Positions 17,817 to 26,925 of a stretch of DNA of 64,000 nt are shown here, one piece after another. The notes beneath the pieces were generated by a model. It made no database searches and was not told where the DNA came from. It was given only the letters and a program-made list of their open reading frames with translations. The DNA comes from Pseudomonas sp. ADAK13. GTDB taxonomy: Bacteria; Pseudomonadota; Gammaproteobacteria; Pseudomonadales; Pseudomonadaceae. The first letter of the stretch is position 1. Each line of letters begins with the position of its first letter. Location of the stretch: assembly GCF_012935715.1 (NCBI RefSeq), contig NZ_CP052860.1:4216001-4280000 (forward strand), given 5' to 3'. The position numbers were made by a program, and so were the translations under genes.

Positions 17817-19025
17817 ATGGAAAATTTGCAAAGCGCGGTGGACACCCTCGTCCACAGTTCCAACACGCTGTTTATTCTGATTGGTGCGGTCATGGTCCTG
17901 GCCATGCACGCCGGCTTTGCGTTCCTGGAAGTCGGCACCGTGCGCCAGAAGAACCAGGTCAATGCCCTGTCGAAAATCCTCAGTGACTTCGCCATCTCCA
18001 CATTGGCCTATTTCTTTATAGGCTATTGGATCTCCTATGGCGTGACGTTCATGCAACCGGCGGCGGTGATCAGCGCTGACCACGGCTATGGCCTGGTGAA
18101 ATTCTTCTTCCTGCTGACCTTCGCTGCGGCGATCCCGGCGATCATTTCCGGGGGGATTGCCGAGCGTGCACGTTTTGTTCCGCAACTGTGTGCCACCGCG
18201 TTGATCGTGGCCTTCATCTACCCGTTTTTCGAAGGCATGGTGTGGAACGGCAACTACGGGCTGCAAGCCTGGTTGCTGGCCACCTTCGGCGCCAGCTTCC
18301 ATGACTTTGCCGGCAGCGTCGTGGTGCACGCCATGGGCGGCTGGCTGGCGCTGGCGGCGGTGTTGCTGCTGGGGCCACGGCAAGGGCGTTATCGGGAGGG
18401 GCGGCTGGTGGCGTTTGCGCCGTCGAGCATCCCGTTCCTCGCGTTGGGCTCGTGGATTCTGATCGTCGGCTGGTTTGGCTTTAACGTCATGAGCGCGCAA
18501 ACCCTCTCTGGCGTCAGCGGGCTGGTGGCGGTCAATTCGTTGATGGCGATGGTCGGCGGCACGGTCGCGGCGTTGGTGATCGGGCGCAACGACCCTGGCT
18601 TCTTGCACAACGGCCCGTTGGCCGGCTTGGTGGCGATCTGTGCCGGTTCCGACCTGATGCACCCGGTAGGCGCGCTGGTGACGGGCGTGGTGGCGGGGGG
18701 CTTGTTTGTCTGGTGCTTCATCGCGGCCCAGGATCGCTGGAAGATCGATGATGTGCTGGGTGTGTGGCCGCTGCATGGCCTGTGCGGCGTGTGGGGCGGG
18801 ATCGCCTGCGGGATCTTCGGCCAGACCGCCCTCGGTGGGCTGGGCGGCGTGAGTCTGTTCAGCCAGTTGATCGGCACCGCGCTGGGCGTGCTGGTGGCGC
18901 TGGTCGGCGGCTTCCTGGTGTACGGTGTGATCAAGCGCGTTTACGGCCTGCGCCTGAGTCAGGAAGAGGAGTATTACGGCGCCGATTTGTCGATCCACAA
19001 GATTGGCGCCGTCAGTCAGGACTGA
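17817..19025 (+). CDS. amt: Ammonium transporter, Amt/Rh family
   Basis: Inner-membrane ammonium channel/transporter of 402 residues with about eleven membrane helices. The pore twin histidines lie in GSVVVHAMGGWLAL and VWPLHGLCGVWGGI, and FEVGTVR-type (here FLEVGTVRQKNQVN) and FIYPFFEGMVWN segments match the family. I chose ATG 17817 (MENLQSAVDTLVHSSN); in-frame TTG 17778 and GTG 17781 exist upstream, and none of the three has a good ribosome-binding site. No glnK lies beside it, so this is probably a second, stand-alone Amt rather than the main AmtB. A palindrome sits in its leader. Confidence 0.9.
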   Translation: MENLQSAVDTLVHSSNTLFILIGAVMVLAMHAGFAFLEVGTVRQKNQVNALSKILSDFAISTLAYFFIGYWISYGVTFMQPAAVISADHGYGLVKFFFLLTFAAAIPAIISGGIAERARFVPQLCATALIVAFIYPFFEGMVWNGNYGLQAWLLATFGASFHDFAGSVVVHAMGGWLALAAVLLLGPRQGRYREGRLVAFAPSSIPFLALGSWILIVGWFGFNVMSAQTLSGVSGLVAVNSLMAMVGGTVAALVIGRNDPGFLHNGPLAGLVAICAGSDLMHPVGALVTGVVAGGLFVWCFIAAQDRWKIDDVLGVWPLHGLCGVWGGIACGIFGQTALGGLGGVSLFSQLIGTALGVLVALVGGFLVYGVIKRVYGLRLSQEEEYYGADLSIHKIGAVSQD

Positions 19026-19113
19026 GGGGCGGTTTGCGTTTAGGGGGTTGCGCCTTGCCGCTGCTAATATGGGCAAACAACAACCAGGCGACACCCTTTC
19101 AAACGGAACTTGA

Positions 19114-20133
19114 ATGCCAACCTCTCAACGTTTGCCCCTTGCCCACAGGCCAATAATAATCCTGGGGACCGGGCATGCACTGCCTGAGCACATCCTCACC
19201 AGTGCGCAACTGGATGTTCAACTCGGCCTGGTAGCCGGCAGCGTCGCTCGCGTCAGCGGCGTCACCCATCGGCACGTGGCCAGCCGTCGCGAAAACGCCG
19301 CGAGCCTCGGTGCCATCGCCGCACACCGGGCATTGCTGGCCGCGGGGCTGGCGCTGGAGCAGATCGACCTGGTGGTCTGTGCCAGTGGCACCATGGACCA
19401 GGGCATGCCGTGTAACGCCGCGTTGTTGCACCGCGAATTGGGGTTGGGGTCTTCCGGCATTCCCGCCATGGACATCAATGCAAGTTGCCTGGGGTTTATC
19501 GCCGCGCTGGATACGCTGTCCTGGCCGCTGCTGGCCGGGCGCTACCAGCGCATCTTGCTGGTGTGTTCGGACATCGCTTCCTGCGGGCTGGACTGGCAGC
19601 AGGTGGAAGTCTGCGCAATCTTCGGCGACGGTGCTGCGGCGGTGGTGCTGGCGGTCAGCGACGTCGGGTCGAAAATCCTGGCCTCAAACCTCAAGACGTA
19701 TTCCGAAGGCGCAGATTTGTGCCAGATCCCCGCCGGCGGTTCGCGTCATCACCCGCGGCGCATCGACGGCCCGTTCGAACCACTGACCAGTTTTTCGATG
19801 CAGGGCAAAAGCGTGTTTCGGCTGGCGGCCAAACACCTGCCCATGCTGGTGGATGAACTGCTGGATCAGGCCGGTTTGACCAAGTCGCAGATTGATTGGG
19901 TCATCCCGCACCAGGCCAGCCAGCAGGCGATGCAGCATGCGGCCCGGCGGTTGGGATTTGCCCCTGAACAGGTCATCGACATCTTCGCTTCGCACGGCAA
20001 TCAGGTGGCGGCGTCACTGCCCACCGCGCTGGATATCGCCGTCCGTGACCAGCGTATCCAGCGCGGCCAGCGCCTGATGTTGATAGGTACCGGCGCGGGC
20101 TTATCCCTTGGCGGCATGGTCCTGGAGTACTGA
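19114..20133 (+). CDS. 3-oxoacyl-ACP synthase III-like enzyme, first gene of a seven-gene biosynthetic operon
   Basis: Thiolase-fold KAS III (FabH-like) enzyme of 339 residues. The catalytic triad is intact: Cys125 in DINASCLGF, His266 in VIPHQASQQAM and Asn296 in ASHGNQVAASLPT. FGDGAAAVVL and GTGAGLSLGGM are standard. It should take an acyl group from CoA or ACP onto Cys125 and condense it with a second acyl unit; which units is unknown. It is unlikely to be housekeeping FabH, because the operon contains none of the fatty-acid synthesis genes (fabD, fabG, acpP). ATG 19114 is 88 bases after amt. Its TGA shares its A with the next ATG. Confidence 0.88.
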   Translation: MPTSQRLPLAHRPIIILGTGHALPEHILTSAQLDVQLGLVAGSVARVSGVTHRHVASRRENAASLGAIAAHRALLAAGLALEQIDLVVCASGTMDQGMPCNAALLHRELGLGSSGIPAMDINASCLGFIAALDTLSWPLLAGRYQRILLVCSDIASCGLDWQQVEVCAIFGDGAAAVVLAVSDVGSKILASNLKTYSEGADLCQIPAGGSRHHPRRIDGPFEPLTSFSMQGKSVFRLAAKHLPMLVDELLDQAGLTKSQIDWVIPHQASQQAMQHAARRLGFAPEQVIDIFASHGNQVAASLPTALDIAVRDQRIQRGQRLMLIGTGAGLSLGGMVLEY

Positions 20134-21140
20134 TGAAAGTTCTCGTCACCGGTGGCACCGGATTCATTGGTCGGCACATTGTCTGGCGCCTCGTCGGCCA
20201 GGGGTGTGAGGTGCAGTTTACCGGCCGCAATGCCCGTGCTGCGGCCGAGGTCATTCGCCAGAGCCCCGGCGTGGCATCCTGGGTGCCGCTGGAACACGGC
20301 ACCTCAGGGGCTTGCCGCACGTTGCTCGATGCCTCGCATGCGTGTGCGGCGGTGGTTCATTGCGCGGCGCTGTCCTCGCCATGGGGCACGGTGCCAGCAT
20401 TTGCCCGAGCCAATCTCGATTCCACTGCCGAGGTGCTGAATGCCTGCCGCGTCAACCAGGTGAAGCGGCTGGTGCACTTGTCCACACCCAGTCTGTATTT
20501 TGCGTTCCGTGATCGTCTCGATATTCGTGAAGACGAACCACTGCCACCCCCGGTCAACGAATACGCGCGCAGCAAGGCATTGGCGGAAGTGCGGGTGAAT
20601 GAGGCGGGGCTTGCCGAAGCAGTGATCCTGCGCCCGCGTGCGGTGTTTGGCCCGTGGGACGCCACCTTGATGCCACGTTTGGTGCGGGTGATGCAGCGCG
20701 GGCCGATTCCGCTGATGCGAGGGGGGCAGGCGCAACTGGACCTTACCTGCGTCGACAACCTGGTACACGCGGTGCTGTTGAGCCTGACCCAACCGCTGCC
20801 TCGGGCGGTGTGCACCTATAACGTCAGCAATGGCACGCCGTTGACGGTCGCTGACTTACTGCAACGCGTCGCCGAGCAGTTTCAACTGAATCTGCGCACC
20901 CGGCGCGTGCCATGGCGACTCATGGACGCGCTGGCTCGGGTGCTGGAAGTCGGCGCACACCTGAGAGGCAGCGGCGAGCCGTTGCTGACACGCTATGGCG
21001 CCGGTGTGCTGGCGTTCAGCCAAACCCTGGACCTGAGTGCCATTCGAAACGAGCTGGGCTACCGCCCGGTCGTGACGCAGGACGAAGGCATCCGCCAGCA
21101 CGCACAGTGGTGGCTTGCCCAACAAGGAGTGGGAGCATGA
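20133..21140 (+). CDS. NAD(P)-dependent epimerase/dehydratase, extended SDR (3-beta-HSD-like)
   Basis: 335 residues. The Rossmann motif KVLVTGGTGFIGRHIVWRL is at the extreme N-terminus, and the catalytic region shows STPSLYF and Y-x3-K in NEYARSKALAE. RPRAVFGPWDATLMPRL and YNVSNGTPLTV resemble 3-beta-hydroxysteroid dehydrogenase/OleD-type reductases. A reasonable guess is reduction of the beta-keto product of the preceding synthase, but epimerisation or dehydration cannot be excluded. Start and stop both overlap their neighbours, so it is co-translated. Confidence 0.85.
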   Translation: MKVLVTGGTGFIGRHIVWRLVGQGCEVQFTGRNARAAAEVIRQSPGVASWVPLEHGTSGACRTLLDASHACAAVVHCAALSSPWGTVPAFARANLDSTAEVLNACRVNQVKRLVHLSTPSLYFAFRDRLDIREDEPLPPPVNEYARSKALAEVRVNEAGLAEAVILRPRAVFGPWDATLMPRLVRVMQRGPIPLMRGGQAQLDLTCVDNLVHAVLLSLTQPLPRAVCTYNVSNGTPLTVADLLQRVAEQFQLNLRTRRVPWRLMDALARVLEVGAHLRGSGEPLLTRYGAGVLAFSQTLDLSAIRNELGYRPVVTQDEGIRQHAQWWLAQQGVGA

Positions 21141-21991
21141 GCCGTACTGTCAGCCTGAGTGTGTTGCGCGCCGGCTGGTGCCAGCACCTGGAATGCCTGG
21201 CCGATCGGGGAGGGCGCTGGGTGCCGACGCGTTTTCCGGCCTTGTGCGGTTTGATCCGCCATCCCGACGCGGGCTGGATACTCTACGACACCGGTTACGC
21301 CGAGCACTTTTTTAACGCCACCCAGGCACTGCCCGAGCGCCTGTATCGCAGCGCGGTGCCGGTCGAGCTGCCGGTGAAAGAACAGCTGCTCACGCAATTG
21401 CGCGCATTCGGTATCGGTCCCGATGACATACGCACGGTGATCATTTCGCACTTCCACAGCGATCACATCGCCGGGCTCAGGGACTTCCCCCAGGCCAAGT
21501 TCATCGCATTGGAGGCCGACCGCAAACACATCGACAGCCTGCGGGGCCATCGCTGGCGAGCGACCCTGGGCGGTCATCTGCCGGCGTTGTTGCCCGACGA
21601 TTTCGCCGCGCGCATGACCCTCGCCGACACCTGCAAAAAAGCCGCGCTGCCGGACTGGATGACACCGTTTCATCAAGGTCTGGATCTGCTCGGCGATGGC
21701 AGCCTGCTGGGCGTTCCGCTGCCGGGGCATAGCGAAGGGCAGTTGGGTTTGTTCATGCCCGATGCCCAGGGGCGACCGGTGTTTCTGGTGGCCGACGCGT
21801 GCTGGTCGGTCCCCGCCTGCCGTGCCGGGCGGTTGCCGGCGCCACCGGCCTTGTGGTTTGCCAGCCACGATGCCAAACAGTATCGCCAGACCTACAGCGG
21901 CTTGGGCGAGTTGATTCGCCGCGAACCGGCCGTGGCCGTGCTGCCTTCCCATTGCACCCATGCCTGGGAGGCGTTCGGCGATGAGCGATGA
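21137..21991 (+). CDS. MBL-fold metallo-hydrolase
   Basis: 284 residues. The dinuclear metal motif HFHSDH (His105, His107, Asp109, His110) is intact, with further ligands likely in GHSEGQLG, LVADAC and PSHCTHAW. GWILYDTGYAEHFF and RTVIISHFHSDH are typical of lactonase-type members, and in this operon it could act as a thioesterase or lactonase releasing or trimming the product. Its ATG overlaps the preceding stop (ATGA), and its last 11 bases overlap the next gene. Confidence 0.82.
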   Translation: MSRTVSLSVLRAGWCQHLECLADRGGRWVPTRFPALCGLIRHPDAGWILYDTGYAEHFFNATQALPERLYRSAVPVELPVKEQLLTQLRAFGIGPDDIRTVIISHFHSDHIAGLRDFPQAKFIALEADRKHIDSLRGHRWRATLGGHLPALLPDDFAARMTLADTCKKAALPDWMTPFHQGLDLLGDGSLLGVPLPGHSEGQLGLFMPDAQGRPVFLVADACWSVPACRAGRLPAPPALWFASHDAKQYRQTYSGLGELIRREPAVAVLPSHCTHAWEAFGDER

Positions 21992-23339
21992 GCGCTTGAT
22001 CGGCACATTGCGCAGCGCAGCCAGTTTCCTGCACAGCCGCTACCGGCTGCAGTTTGCCCGCCGGGAACAACTGGAAGCCTGGCAGGCACGCCAGTTGAAG
22101 TATTTCCTGCAACGGGTATTGCCTCAGTCGCACCGTTTCAAGGGGCAGGTGGTGACGGACCTGAGTGCTTTGCCGCTGATGGAAAAAGCCACGCTGATGG
22201 GCGATTTCGCCGGGTTCAACACCCGTGGCTTGAGCCTGGCGCAGGTGCTGCCGGTGGCACGCCGGGCTGAAGAGTCCCGGGATTTCAGCCCGACGCTGGG
22301 TGACCTCACCGTCGGCTTGTCGAGCGGGACCTCGGGTAATCAAGGTGTATTCCTCGTCAGCAGCCTTGAGCGTCAACGTTGGGCCGGCATCCTGCTGGCG
22401 CGCACGCTGCCGCGTCATCTGCTGCCACGCCTGCTTTTTCCATGGCGCGCGCCGTTGCGCATCGCATTCTTTCTACGGGCCAATAGCCGGCTCTACACAA
22501 CGCTGGCCAGTCGACGCATCGACTTTGCCTTCCACGACCTGACCCTTGGGCTCGACGCCAGCCTGTCGCGTCTCAACACTCAGCAACCCGACGTACTGGT
22601 GGCGCCGGCCACGGTATTGCGCGGGTTGGCCGAAGCCGCGCTGGCCGGGCGCCTGTCCATCCGCCCGAGCCATATCCTGTCGGTGGCGGAAGTCCTCGAA
22701 ACGGCGGATGCAGAAGCGGCGCAGGCGGCGTTCGGCGTGGCTCCCCGGCAGATTTACCAGGCCAGCGAAGGCTTCCTTGGCTACACCTGCGAACAGGGTA
22801 CTTTGCACCTGAACGAAAGCCACCTGCACATTGAGGCGGATTGGCTGGACGCCGCGCGCACACGTTTTCAGCCGATCATCACCGACTTCTCCCGACGCAC
22901 CCAGTTGATCGTGCGTTACCGTCTCAACGATGTGTTGCGGGTGACCCAGGCGCCTTGCGCGTGCGGGCGTGTCGAACGCGCGATTGCCGCGGTCGAGGGG
23001 CGTATGGATGACATTCTTTGGCTGCCCGACGTGAGCGGTGTTCAATTGCGCGCGCTCTATCCGGATGTGCTGCGGCGCGCCTTGCTGATGCACGGTGAGT
23101 GCTTGCGGGAATATGAAATCCACCAGCAAGGCCTGCACTGGCAGATCAACGTGCAAGCTGGCGGTGATCACGCCGACCTGTGCCAGGCCTTGATCCAAAG
23201 CATTCACGCATTCTGCCAGCAGCAGGGGCTGCAACCTCCGGCGTTCAGTTTCGGCCAGTGGCAGCCGCCGCCGGCGTTTGCCAAGCGCCGCCGTCTGAAA
23301 CTGCTGCAACTGCCCGAGGGTTTGCCATGCATGTACTGA
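21981..23339 (+). CDS. Adenylate-forming enzyme related to coenzyme F390 synthetase / PaaK
   Basis: 452 residues of the ANL superfamily, in the F390-synthetase-related branch. The A3 phosphate-binding loop is LSSGTSGNQGVFLV (about 113-126). IYQASEGFLGYTCE matches the A5 region, and DFSRRTQLIVRYRLNDVLRV gives the A7/A8 hinge with CACGRVERAIAAVEGRMDD. It should activate a carboxylic acid as an acyl-adenylate; the absence of a neighbouring carrier protein suggests transfer to a free acceptor or CoA. The start at 21981 overlaps the MBL gene by 11 bases. Confidence 0.82.
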   Translation: MSDERLIGTLRSAASFLHSRYRLQFARREQLEAWQARQLKYFLQRVLPQSHRFKGQVVTDLSALPLMEKATLMGDFAGFNTRGLSLAQVLPVARRAEESRDFSPTLGDLTVGLSSGTSGNQGVFLVSSLERQRWAGILLARTLPRHLLPRLLFPWRAPLRIAFFLRANSRLYTTLASRRIDFAFHDLTLGLDASLSRLNTQQPDVLVAPATVLRGLAEAALAGRLSIRPSHILSVAEVLETADAEAAQAAFGVAPRQIYQASEGFLGYTCEQGTLHLNESHLHIEADWLDAARTRFQPIITDFSRRTQLIVRYRLNDVLRVTQAPCACGRVERAIAAVEGRMDDILWLPDVSGVQLRALYPDVLRRALLMHGECLREYEIHQQGLHWQINVQAGGDHADLCQALIQSIHAFCQQQGLQPPAFSFGQWQPPPAFAKRRRLKLLQLPEGLPCMY

Positions 23340-24475
23340 TTCTTGGCGCACGCGCCCCAGCGTGCCTGGAGTGGGCGCGGGCCTTTGACGAGGCGGGCTG
23401 GACGGTCAGCGTGGGTGATTCCGTGAGCCAGCCGCTGAGCCGTTTCAGCTGTTCGGTGCAACACTTTGTGCGCTTGCCGGAACCTCGACAGGCTCCCGCC
23501 GCCTGGATCGAGGCGCTAGCGCGGGTGATCCAGGCGCAGCACATCGATTTGCTACTGCCCACCTGCGAGGAAGTGTTTTACCTGGCTCACGGTCTCGCAC
23601 GCCTGGCGCCGCTGTGCCGGATATTGACCAGCGATTTTGCCTTGCTGCATCGCTTGCATCACAAGGGGCGCTTTGCCGCCATGACCGAGGGGTGGGCGTT
23701 GGCGGCGCCTGAAACCCGGCTGTTGACCGATCGCCCGGCGGTGCAGGCATTGATGGATGAAGCAGGCCAGTGGGTGTTCAAGCCGGCTTATTCGCGTTTT
23801 GCCTCCCAGACGTTGATTCGTCCGTATGCCGGGCAACTGGTCAAGGTACAGCCCAGTGAAGCGGCGCCGTGGGTGGCGCAGCGGTTTATCGAGGGCCGGG
23901 AATACTGCAGCTTCAGCGTGTTGATCGACGGTGAGTTGCGCGCCCACAGCTGCTACCACCCGCGCTACCGGGTGGGGCGTGGGTCGGGGATTTATTTCGA
24001 GCCTTGTATGCCAGTGCCAGTGCGCCAGTTTCTAGAACAATTCGGTCGCGAAACGGGCTACACCGGGCAGGTCGGCTTCGACTTTATCGAAGAGTCGGGC
24101 GGACATTTTCATGTCCTGGAATGCAACCCGCGAGCCACCAGTGGGGTGCACCTGTTTGACAATCAGCGCAAGCAACTGGTGGCCAGCCTGACTGGCAGCG
24201 GCGTGCTTGAACCCACCTGCGAACCCCGGATGATTGCGCTGGCGATGCTTCTGCTGGCAGCGCCGCAGCGGGTATTGAACGCGGGCTTCTGGCGTGACTA
24301 TAGCGATGCCCGGGATGTGATTACCCGCCAGGGTGACTTCTGGCCCCTGCCTGCCCAACTCCTGAGCCTGGCGGAAATCATCGCCCGCGCGGCTTCCCGG
24401 CGCTGCGGGCTGCTGGCCGCGTCCACCGCAGACATCGAGTGGAACGGCCAGCCGTTGAGCGAGTACCTGCCATGA
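23327..24475 (+). CDS. ATP-grasp domain protein
   Basis: 382 residues. An N-terminal pre-ATP-grasp Rossmann-like domain (HVLILGARAPACLEWARAF) is followed by ATP-grasp motifs: WVFKPAYSRFASQTLIRP, WVAQRFIEGREYCSFSV and the metal-binding HFHVLECNPRATSG. Such enzymes join a carboxylate, via acyl-phosphate, to an amine or thiol. It may supply an amide bond to the product. It overlaps the preceding gene by 13 bases and the next by 4. The C-terminal ~90 residues are helical without a recognised motif. Confidence 0.82.
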   Translation: MHVLILGARAPACLEWARAFDEAGWTVSVGDSVSQPLSRFSCSVQHFVRLPEPRQAPAAWIEALARVIQAQHIDLLLPTCEEVFYLAHGLARLAPLCRILTSDFALLHRLHHKGRFAAMTEGWALAAPETRLLTDRPAVQALMDEAGQWVFKPAYSRFASQTLIRPYAGQLVKVQPSEAAPWVAQRFIEGREYCSFSVLIDGELRAHSCYHPRYRVGRGSGIYFEPCMPVPVRQFLEQFGRETGYTGQVGFDFIEESGGHFHVLECNPRATSGVHLFDNQRKQLVASLTGSGVLEPTCEPRMIALAMLLLAAPQRVLNAGFWRDYSDARDVITRQGDFWPLPAQLLSLAEIIARAASRRCGLLAASTADIEWNGQPLSEYLP

Positions 24476-25611
24476 GGTTACTGTTCGAAGAGCAACTGCT
24501 CAATGAGCCCCCACCCGCCGACGATAGCCTTGCCCGGCGCTATGTGCGCACCTGCGCCGGCGGCGCGCTGATCGGCAACGTCAGCACCCGCATGGCGCTG
24601 CTCGACACCGGGACGCAGCAGTTCCCTGTCAGTATCACCGAGGGCCTTGAGCCGGATGGCAATTGCTACGTGGTGTCGCCTCAAACCGCCTTCAGCGGTT
24701 ACGCCCTCGAAGAGATCAAACGCCTTGGACGCCCCCGGCTGACCTGGCCGCTGAAGGTCCTGACCCAGGGCGTGCAGCACATGTTGCGCTGGGCCAGGAT
24801 CGACAAGCTGGTGCAGGTCAACAACTGGCTTCTGTCCACCAACCTTTACCCCGGCGATTGGGACATCAACGAGTTGCCGGCGATCACCGCCTTGCTGCAG
24901 CGAACGTTTCCCGATCACGGGTTTGGTTTTCGCTCGCTGAATGACTTCAGCAATCGGCCATTGCGCCAGCGTCTGGAAAACCTCGGCTACCTGAGTATTC
25001 CCACTCGGCAGGTCTATCTGTTCGATGGCCGGGAGGGGGCACAGGCCGCGTTTCTCAACCACCACAACACCCGGCTTGACGCCACGTTGCTGCGCCGCAG
25101 CCCCTATGAAGTGGTGCCGGGCGCAGCGCTGGACGACGCCGACTTCCAACGCATCGAGCATCTTTACAACCTGCTTTACCTGGACAAGTACTGCACGCTG
25201 AACCCGCACTACAGCGCCCAGTGGATGCAGCGTGGTCAGCGCGAAGGCTGGCTGGAGATGCGCGCGTTACGCAACAGTGAGGGGCGCATTGACGGTGCCC
25301 TGGGCTGGTTTGCCAATGCGGCACTGATCAGCACGCCGATCGTGGGTTACGACACGGGCTTGCCACAGCGGGCCGGGTTGTACCGCCAGCTCACGCGGTT
25401 GTGCCTGCAAGAGGCGGTTGAGCGCGGTGTGGTGCTGAATTTCAGTTCGGGTGCTGCCGGGTTCAAACGCTTGCGCGGGGGCCAGCCGCAAATCGAATAC
25501 AGCCTGATCCATGTCGCCCATTTATCCTGGGGCCGCAGGTGGGTTTGGCGCGTCCTGAGCCAACTGTTGCATGGCATCGGTGTGCCCCTGATGCGCAGGT
25601 TCAAACTATGA
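24472..25611 (+). CDS. GNAT-like acyltransferase-fold protein of the operon
   Basis: 379 residues, not matched to a named family with certainty. The central and C-terminal region (about 190-345) resembles a GNAT/FemAB-like acyltransferase: HLYNLLYLDKYCTLNPHYSA, then GWLEMRALRNSEGRIDGALG and RGVVLNFSSGAAGFKRLRGG. The C-terminus is basic and hydrophobic (WRVLSQLLHGIGVPLMRRF), so it may touch the membrane. A role in moving an acyl group to an amine is inference from fold and context. It is coupled to both neighbours by ATGA overlaps. Confidence 0.6.
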   Translation: MRLLFEEQLLNEPPPADDSLARRYVRTCAGGALIGNVSTRMALLDTGTQQFPVSITEGLEPDGNCYVVSPQTAFSGYALEEIKRLGRPRLTWPLKVLTQGVQHMLRWARIDKLVQVNNWLLSTNLYPGDWDINELPAITALLQRTFPDHGFGFRSLNDFSNRPLRQRLENLGYLSIPTRQVYLFDGREGAQAAFLNHHNTRLDATLLRRSPYEVVPGAALDDADFQRIEHLYNLLYLDKYCTLNPHYSAQWMQRGQREGWLEMRALRNSEGRIDGALGWFANAALISTPIVGYDTGLPQRAGLYRQLTRLCLQEAVERGVVLNFSSGAAGFKRLRGGQPQIEYSLIHVAHLSWGRRWVWRVLSQLLHGIGVPLMRRFKL

Positions 25612-26609
25612 GTCAGGTAAACGCCTGGTGGCCGGTAGCCCTGAGCCACCAACTGCGCAATGCTCCGTTGGCATGCCAGCTTTTGGGTCTGCCGCTGGTG
25701 CTGTTTCGGGATGAGGGCGGGCGCGCCGCCGTCCTGCCTGATCGCTGCCCTCATCGCTTTGCGCCATTGAGCGCAGGCAAGGTGCGCGATGGGCAGATCG
25801 AATGCCCCTATCACGGTTGGCGATTTGCCGCCGACGGGCGCTGTACGCGGGTGCCGGGCACCGAGCAGGCAGCGTGCAACAAGCCGTTGCTGGATAGTGT
25901 GCAGAGTTGCGAGGCCCACGGGCTGGTCTGGGTCAGTCCAGGGCCCGAGCGTCCGCAAGCACCGCCGGTTGCGCCTGCCCCGCAGCAGCAGAACCTCGAC
26001 ACGTTCTGGATAACCGACCAGGTGCAGTGCTCACTCCAGGACGCTGCGGAAAATTTCCTCGACGGGTTTCACACGCATTTCGTGCATGCCGGGTGGATAC
26101 GACACGACAGGCAGCGGCAAAAACTCAGGGTTCGGGTGCGCGCCCTCGCAGACGGCGTGGAGGCGGTCTATAGCGAAGAGGGCAAGCAGTCAGGGTTGAT
26201 CTCACACTGGTTCGAGGGCGAGCGTGGCGTCAGCATGGGACGCTTTCGTTTGCCGGGGCTGGCCGAGATCGAATACCGCGATGCACGCGGCGGCGTTAAC
26301 TTGCTGGTCAGTGCGTGGATGACGCCGAGTGGCGATGGCCAATTGCGCTTGTTTGCCCGGGTGGCCACGACACGCGGAGTATTGCCGGCGCTGCTCAAGC
26401 GTTGGGTGTTGCGCCGGTTGTTCGGGGTGATCCTGCGCCAGGACCGTCAGATCCTCGAGCGTGTCAGCGCTAATCAGCGGCGCTTTCACCGCATCCCGGC
26501 GACGCCCCTGGATGGGCCGCAAGACCTGCTGGGGCCTGGCATACGACAGTTGCTGGAGAACGGTCAGCCACTGGTCTTTGCCGAGAGAGAGCTGGAAATC
26601 TGGCTGTAG
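25608..26609 (+). CDS. Rieske non-heme iron oxygenase, last gene of the operon
   Basis: 333 residues. The Rieske [2Fe-2S] ligands are Cys47-x-His49 and Cys66-x2-His69 (DRCPHRF, ECPYHGW). The mononuclear iron site fits E-x3-D-x2-H-x4-H exactly: Glu148, Asp152, His155, His160 in AAENFLDGFHTHFVHAG. It should hydroxylate, desaturate or otherwise oxidise the pathway intermediate, using an electron-transfer partner not encoded nearby. It is coupled by ATGA to the preceding gene and closes the operon; the next gene starts 80 bases later. Confidence 0.88.
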   Translation: MSQVNAWWPVALSHQLRNAPLACQLLGLPLVLFRDEGGRAAVLPDRCPHRFAPLSAGKVRDGQIECPYHGWRFAADGRCTRVPGTEQAACNKPLLDSVQSCEAHGLVWVSPGPERPQAPPVAPAPQQQNLDTFWITDQVQCSLQDAAENFLDGFHTHFVHAGWIRHDRQRQKLRVRVRALADGVEAVYSEEGKQSGLISHWFEGERGVSMGRFRLPGLAEIEYRDARGGVNLLVSAWMTPSGDGQLRLFARVATTRGVLPALLKRWVLRRLFGVILRQDRQILERVSANQRRFHRIPATPLDGPQDLLGPGIRQLLENGQPLVFAERELEIWL

Positions 26610-26688
26610 GGGCGTCAGGAAGGGGCCGTGTTTTGCGGTACCCGGACACTGTTAGAATAGGCACCTGATTCTTCCCGGACCCTTTGCC

Positions 26689-26925
26689 ATGCTTCCTGAA
26701 TGTCAGTTGTTCGGCACCCTGGGCTGCCACCTGTGTGAGTTTGCCGAAGCCGAAATCATGCCGTTGGTCGAACACGGCCTGTTGGTGGAGTTGGTGGATA
26801 TCGCCGATTCCGAAGCCTTGTTCGAGGCCTACGGCCTGCGGATTCCGGTGCTGCGCCGGGTGGACACGGGCGCCGAGCTGGAGTGGCCGTTCGACGAAGC
26901 GCAGGTGGTGAACTTTCTTGGCTAG
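26689..26925 (+). CDS. Glutaredoxin-family protein (DUF836-like)
   Basis: 78 residues with a thioredoxin-fold redox site CHLC in LFGTLGCHLCEFAEAE and the cis-proline segment LRIPVLRR. This is the short glutaredoxin-like family common in Pseudomonas. It is probably a cytoplasmic thiol-disulfide protein; the partner is unknown. TAGAAT at 26653-26658 is a good -10 element, so it appears to have its own promoter. Confidence 0.85.
   Translation: MLPECQLFGTLGCHLCEFAEAEIMPLVEHGLLVELVDIADSEALFEAYGLRIPVLRRVDTGAELEWPFDEAQVVNFLG

Follow-up and report, generated by a model that had tools for sequence, protein, structure and literature searches.

Several described systems resemble the locus reported here. 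Pseudomonas quinolone signal (PQS) biosynthesis (PqsA-E) combines acid activation, condensation by a beta-ketoacyl-acyl carrier protein synthase III (KAS III) enzyme, and a metallo-beta-lactamase-fold (MBL) thioesterase. OleABCD unites a condensing enzyme, an OleD-like short-chain dehydrogenase/reductase (SDR), an adenylating enzyme, and a hydrolase of the alpha/beta type in one cluster. Fem, MprF, VlmA, and Sba18 are aminoacyl-tRNA-dependent ligases with the GCN5-related N-acetyltransferase (GNAT) fold. Finally, MxnB and CorB act on chains bound to polyketide synthase (PKS) carriers, which are closed to an alpha-pyrone (PMC4578411 and PMC5724707). Here, we describe seven consecutive genes (A to G) of Pseudomonas sp. 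ADAK13, located in a 64,000-nucleotide stretch of contig NZ_CP052860.1 (positions 4,216,001 to 4,280,000; referred to as the window).

We propose, with about even confidence, that the seven genes form one horizontally moving biosynthetic operon, in which an acyl-assembly core (A-D) and an amide-forming and oxidizing tail (E-F-G) would build, reduce, reactivate, amidate, and oxidize an acyl chain. Across genomes, we observe that the conserved unit is the four-gene core (KAS III, SDR, MBL hydrolase, and PaaK-like ligase), with E-F-G representing one of at least six arrangements. A preliminary description of this DNA, which had taken the seven genes as the unit, was right in seeing one operon and incomplete as to what is conserved. 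The features are as follows.

A, 19114..20133, + strand: KAS III-like ketosynthase, 339 amino acids (aa), MxnB/CorB-like; Pfam ACP_syn_III
B, 20133..21140, + strand: OleD-like extended SDR, 335 aa, presumed 3-keto reductase; Epimerase/3Beta_HSD
C, 21137..21991, + strand: metallo-beta-lactamase-fold hydrolase, 284 aa, like lactonases of N-acyl homoserine lactones (AHL); Lactamase_B
D, 21981..23339, + strand: PaaK/F390-synthetase-like adenylating enzyme, 452 aa; TIGR02304 above cutoff
E, 23327..24475, + strand: ATP-grasp ligase, 382 aa; PRK06849 above cutoff
F, 24472..25611, + strand: two-domain GNAT/Fem-fold transferase, 379 aa; no Pfam or NCBIfam match of its own
G, 25608..26609, + strand: Rieske nonheme iron oxygenase, 333 aa; Rieske and VanA_C
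Whole insert, 19026..26684, no strand: from an ammonium-transporter gene to a glutaredoxin-like gene, limits accurate to within a few tens of bases

Layout of the operon and limits of the insert

The seven open reading frames (ORFs), all on the plus strand and free of internal stops, span 19114 to 26609 and overlap by 1, 4, 11, 13, 4, and 4 bases at successive junctions, which bears out the preliminary figure of 1 to 13 bases per junction. The start codon of D was chosen from an alignment of orthologs. An ammonium-transporter stretch of the window was matched in 12 relatives, and the region beyond it was compared in eight of these. In all eight, homology to the window ends at 19023 to 19031 and restarts at 26652 to 26689, where a glutaredoxin-like gene begins (26689 to 26925; PF05768 was matched on the copy in the near relative L046, which is the same ORF in the window). 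L046 carries the operon between the same two flanking genes. One relative (L105) shows an empty site, with only 75 bases between the two break points, and the other seven hold approximately 1.8 to 2.2 kb of DNA unlike the window, so that the site looks like a hot spot for inserted cargo. The insert contains the seven genes and no further called gene, which is independent evidence that they constitute one unit.

No transporter or regulator gene lies inside the insert. The genome has 27 PF00550 (carrier protein) matches, all of them outside the window, and no carrier protein emerged from a crude motif search among small ORFs between 16 and 30 kb. The earlier view of one biosynthetic operon lacking PKS, nonribosomal peptide synthetase (NRPS), carrier protein, and exporter is supported. 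The accompanying claim that a regulator is lacking holds for the window insert and fails for some of the related loci described below, in which an XRE-type (L013 and L023), TetR (L053, L054, L059, and L082), or ArsR (L052) gene stands beside A. The XRE-type genes, at L013 6118-6852 (Pseudomonas) and L023 6386-7120 (Hydrogenophilales), encode a Cro/C1-type helix-turn-helix regulator of one family, a candidate dedicated regulator that is absent from the window. Promoter and terminator scans gave matches no more common than in shuffled sequence, and no structured RNA or riboswitch matched Rfam at the gathering threshold between 17500 and 28500. A role as a defense system was rejected, as 0 of the 7 proteins match any PADLOC model at an E value of 0.001.

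Enzyme families and a putative acyl pathway

The triad Cys125, His266, and Asn296 of A is conserved without exception in the 24 aligned sequences, the window among them, as is typical of KAS III/FabH. Its solved relatives are, best first, 4v2p (MxnB, PMC5724707; 210 bits), 4yuc (CorB; 204), and a FabH (202). OleA E117 and PpyS E105, located before a conserved Pro, are a catalytic Glu (PMC4578411) that A lacks: the position is Met98 in the window, Leu, Ile, or Met in all 24 relatives aligned, and the likewise hydrophobic Val in MxnB and CorB. Two OleA sequences entered this comparison, both with Glu and one of them checked against solved OleA chains. MxnB and CorB, whose two-chain mechanism is given in PMC5724707, have been suggested to be able to dispense with a base, since the carbon to be deprotonated sits between two carbonyls (PMC4578411). 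Like them in lacking the OleA-type Glu, A should therefore need an activated nucleophile, which by analogy may be of the malonyl or beta-ketoacyl type. The A family also shares with MxnB and CorB the motif QxxP and, with small deviations, N-x-[ST]-C-x-[SG]-F. In our tree A falls together with MxnB and CorB and separately from FabH (support, 95/90; only three FabH included), which we treat as a lead because of a long-branch warning and because a published tree puts MxnB and CorB inside FabH (PMC4578411). In contrast to MxnB and CorB with their PKS carrier-bound chains, A is accompanied by no PKS or carrier and is followed by an SDR.

This SDR, B, displays the Rossmann motif TGGTGFIG and YxxxK, and its best NCBIfam model is OleD (NF042422), at 179.8 bits against a cutoff of 580, so B falls well short of OleD proper. 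Together with A it bears on an Ole-like beta-lactone route, in which A would condense two fatty acyl coenzyme A (acyl-CoA) molecules head to head, B would yield a 2-alkyl-3-hydroxy acid, D would close a beta-lactone in the manner of OleC, and C would open it or protect against it. The four core enzyme classes do parallel OleA, OleD, OleC, and a hydrolase, OleD is the best model for B, and C is lactonase-like. However, the Glu required in OleA and PpyS is replaced in A by Met, Leu, or Ile, the hydrolase is of the MBL type, and D is a PaaK-type ligase, whereas OleC belongs to another ANL branch. The OleD model is also matched better elsewhere in the genome, by a second OleD-like SDR (C1:583856-584827; L094 6830-7828; 242 bits). 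We regard this route as quite improbable. Membership in OleABCD itself was rejected on the missing catalytic Glu of A and the sub-cutoff score of B.

The best NCBIfam model for C is the AttM lactonase, at 65.1 bits against a cutoff of 390, which leaves C outside the AHL lactonases (AttM/AiiA), although AHL lactonases are found among its MBL relatives. His104, His106, Asp108, His109, His197, Asp219, and His271 (numbered from C residue 2 as position 1) do not vary among the 20 aligned sequences and form a complete metal site; we take them to be the ligands expected of a binuclear lactonase-type MBL. D scores 385.6 bits with TIGR02304 (cutoff, 251.9). Its SxGTSG loop, E263, D317, and K435, which we presume to correspond to particular ANL motifs, are invariant in 18 aligned sequences, as expected of an ANL enzyme.

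The solved relatives of D are mostly phenylacetate-CoA ligases, which, with its place in the PaaK group, favors a PQS-style pathway with an aromatic starter. Here D would first activate an aromatic or short acid, A would extend it, B would reduce it, C would act as a thioesterase like PqsE, and E, F, and G would decorate the product. That C is an MBL hydrolase, as is the thioesterase PqsE, fits this pathway, and PQS enzymes do appear among the solved relatives of A, but at no more than 97.5 bits against 210 for MxnB. The desaturase, fatty-acid hydroxylase, and PAP2 tails found at related loci (see below) would suit aliphatic chains better, and the locus differs from PqsA-E in its ligase family and in the added reductase, ATP-grasp, and Rieske enzymes. 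An aromatic-starter pathway thus appears unlikely.

In the tail, E scores 416.2 bits with PRK06849 (cutoff, 406), and its ECNPRxxSG motif and K152 are invariant in 29 aligned sequences; no sequence match was found among PDB structures. F has no Pfam or NCBIfam match at an E value of 0.001, while PF13480 (GNAT domain) is present in some of its relatives. Its structure model shows a two-domain GNAT/Fem fold, as in the aminoacyl-tRNA-dependent ligases Fem, MprF, and Sba18. The preliminary assignments to KAS III, SDR, MBL, F390-related ligase, ATP-grasp, and Rieske families all stand, and F, then called GNAT-like, is better read, from its modeled fold, as a Fem/aminoacyl-tRNA-ligase-like transferase. 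It differs from Fem, MprF, VlmA, and Sba18 in being at most 15% identical to them, any use of tRNA by F is putative, and the insert has no aminoacyl-tRNA synthetase gene. G matches PF00355 (Rieske) and PF19112 (VanA_C) above cutoff, and its translation holds the Rieske C-x-H/C-x2-H and mononuclear iron-site E-x3-D-x2-H-x4-H motifs. The residues of A, C, and G earlier described as intact are so. The closest solved relatives of G are DdmC and SxtT.

DdmC is a demethylase, and such relatives, together with the AHL lactonases related to C and the patchy occurrence of an operon that moves between genomes, could also suit a catabolic or detoxifying operon. Its hydrolase, reductase, and oxygenase would degrade an exogenous lactone, amide, or aromatic compound, with the KAS III enzyme performing a thiolase-like step. 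On the other hand, a set of two ATP-spending ligases, a ketosynthase, and a Fem-like transferase has an anabolic character, the insert lacks a transporter and a regulator, and the Escherichia coli tail modifies lipids. We consider a degradative function very improbable.

For the biosynthetic operon that we favor, A would take two acyl thioesters from the ACP or CoA of the cell and couple them to give a beta-keto chain, using an activated nucleophile (malonyl or beta-ketoacyl type) as MxnB and CorB do. B would reduce the keto group, C would hydrolyze a thioester or lactone and release the free acid, and D would reactivate the acid as acyl-AMP. E and/or F would then attach an amino acid or amine as an amide, F possibly from aminoacyl-tRNA, and G would hydroxylate. 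We infer the order of steps, the substrates, and the product around what is observed, namely, gene content, intact catalytic residues, co-inheritance, insert limits, and tail/core congruence. The lipid-modifying tails elsewhere, and a sulfotransferase gene beside three related loci, favor an aliphatic, hydroxylated core product. The acyl amide or oxidized lipid of the preliminary description, which we continue to infer, is made likelier by these lipid-modifying tails. Two points weigh against the scheme: chain length, starter, and the order of C and D are fixed by none of the sequence evidence, and two loci in which the other genes are retained have either no G or a broken one.

Spread of the seven genes and exchange of tails

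Of the 25 loci found by a search with D, 22 have all seven genes in order. The exceptions are L002, which ends at a contig edge, L007, which is without G, and L024, which has a short E and neither F nor G. All six further loci picked from the 20 F-carrying Pseudomonas genomes likewise have the seven genes in order; one of them, L049, is the same DNA and genome as L013, and L009 and L010 are 99% identical. F occurs in 20 of 398 Pseudomonas genomes, and the identical 20 carry D at 59% identity or more. Seven other genomes of the 398 carry D without F at 43 to 47% identity, and seven more show weak matches only. The expected co-occurrence is therefore found, with no scattering of the seven genes. 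Their recurrence in order at 54 to 94% protein identity means that the gene set is not a chance arrangement. Together with the window, the 25 loci form 13 neighborhoods (at least two shared flanking families; two neighborhoods rest on short or contig-end loci), which fits repeated horizontal transfer as a block. No plasmid copy of the window operon was found by megablast of a plasmid collection. Providencia and Acerihabitans proteins are 74 to 80% identical to F, and L040, a profile match to F, has F with no core gene within 17 kb around it.

Beyond the seven-gene set, 28 additional loci containing a D homolog were compared (L038, L039, L041 to L045, L052 to L060, and L072 to L083), and 26 of them have the core genes A, B, C, and D in a cluster. 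The 28 loci are a choice, comprising 14 of 26 plasmid records matched, 9 of 9 nonwindow genomes of one search, and 5 of the 7 Pseudomonas genomes with D at 43 to 47% identity; L061, a second copy of the E. coli version already represented by L058, was left out, as was L040, which has no D. The two misfits are both megaplasmids, L055 with core genes spread over 10 kb and L057 with D and E only. Next to the core we distinguish the following tail types.

T1: tail E-F-G; the window type, also on a Paraburkholderia plasmid
T2: PAP2, fatty-acid hydroxylase, and one or two desaturases; five Pseudomonas, three members of one other family of the class, Burkholderia stagnalis, and E. coli
T3: F-G with a divergent E; Rhizobium, Shinella, and two genomes of one family
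T4: E-G; three genomes
T5: A-E-B-C-D with or without F; Paenibacillus and Pontibacillus
T6: divergent TetR and sulfotransferase genes, the latter adjoining three loci; Ketogulonicigenium and two Paracoccus

In addition, the gene order in Fusobacterium is B-C-D-A, L075 has A-D with no recognized tail, and L083 has A-D with an F-like gene only. For the most part, tail type agrees with the phylogeny of A and D. T1, T2, T3, T4, and T6 are each a clade in both the KAS III and ligase trees (subsets of loci), and T5 is a clade in the ligase tree with modest support (82/73), while in the KAS III tree the Fusobacterium row breaks it up. The T2 cores of Pseudomonas cluster with the E. coli T2 core and apart from Pseudomonas T1. 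Since tail types coincide with core clades, core specificity seems fitted to the tail. The active-site residues of A-D are invariant across the tail types aligned (the D alignment contains no T4 row). None of the 34 Pseudomonas genomes with a D match had more than one D, so two operon types were not seen together.

The E. coli version, with a T2 tail, is present in 672 of 5,426 complete E. coli genomes (671 cover at least 80% of the query), with Nissle 1917 and an ST131 strain among the matches listed. In strain ABU 83972 it comprises seven genes, ECABU_RS07620-07650 (L061 4001-10882), between narI and tyrT tRNA genes. The core is homologous and in the same A-D order (A, 42% and D, 41% identical to the window), but its tail, by Pfam PAP2, FA_hydroxylase, and FA_desaturase (acyl-CoA desaturase), takes the place of E-F-G.

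Of the matches listed from the open-license PMC literature, judged by titles and abstract beginnings, none describes the seven genes as a set, the core, or the version in E. coli. In the same matches no known cluster with a solved product emerged, in agreement with the preliminary description. PMC9823363 tabulates a P. syringae pv. actinidiae mutant in a "coenzyme F390 synthetase," and PMC5467263 tabulates a COG1541 gene of a P. aeruginosa strain; either might be a member of the D family. The enzyme families are all known, and their combination and modular spread seem undescribed. We tentatively suggest, at somewhat under even confidence, a new natural product class, in which one four-enzyme acyl core, ranging from Bacillota and Fusobacteriota to about one-eighth of complete E. 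coli genomes, supplies finishing enzymes that differ between lineages. The outcome in the Pseudomonas branch would be an aminoacyl-tRNA-derived, Rieske-oxidized, lipopeptide-like molecule made without PKS or NRPS, and that in the E. coli branch a desaturated, hydroxylated lipid. If this is true, a compact biosynthetic logic is shared by Pseudomonas, E. coli (Nissle 1917 and an ST131 strain), Burkholderia, rhizobia, and Bacillota, with Providencia hinted at by the F relatives. The exchangeable tails would then amount to a natural experiment, the shared core giving a common intermediate and the tails giving predictable differences, and core-carrying strains that pose no handling hazard make the product directly searchable by comparative metabolomics.

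Deviating loci and genomic surroundings

In L007 (6933-8168, Pseudomonas sp. JUb42), the locus missing G, the KAS III enzyme shares one uninterrupted frame with an N-terminal PAAR domain, of a type VI secretion tip family, and this frame sits downstream of a lipase gene; it reflects either insertion of the operon into a PAAR gene or a genuine fusion. A VgrG gene (type VI secretion) is also located upstream of the T2 operon in Pseudomonas (L042 1067-3832), with an ORF of equal length and start in L043 and L044. Type VI islands may be landing places for the core family.

L024 (7218-12099), from the insect symbiont Candidatus Dactylopiibacterium carminicum, is a decayed operon that keeps A-D, with E short and F and G gone. 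On the Paraburkholderia plasmid (L052 12600-13700), A-F are annotated, and the Rieske frame is broken and unannotated, which may be a sequencing error. On the Pseudomonas megaplasmids pBASL58 (L055) and pMPPla107 (L057), a divergent D is scattered, together with E and in L055 also A, B, and C, among hypothetical genes, in contrast to the compact operons. Finally, two places of the E. coli version are on plasmid records, one of which (L058) also holds the chromosomal neighbors from narG to hns and may be misassembled or an excised chromosomal segment.

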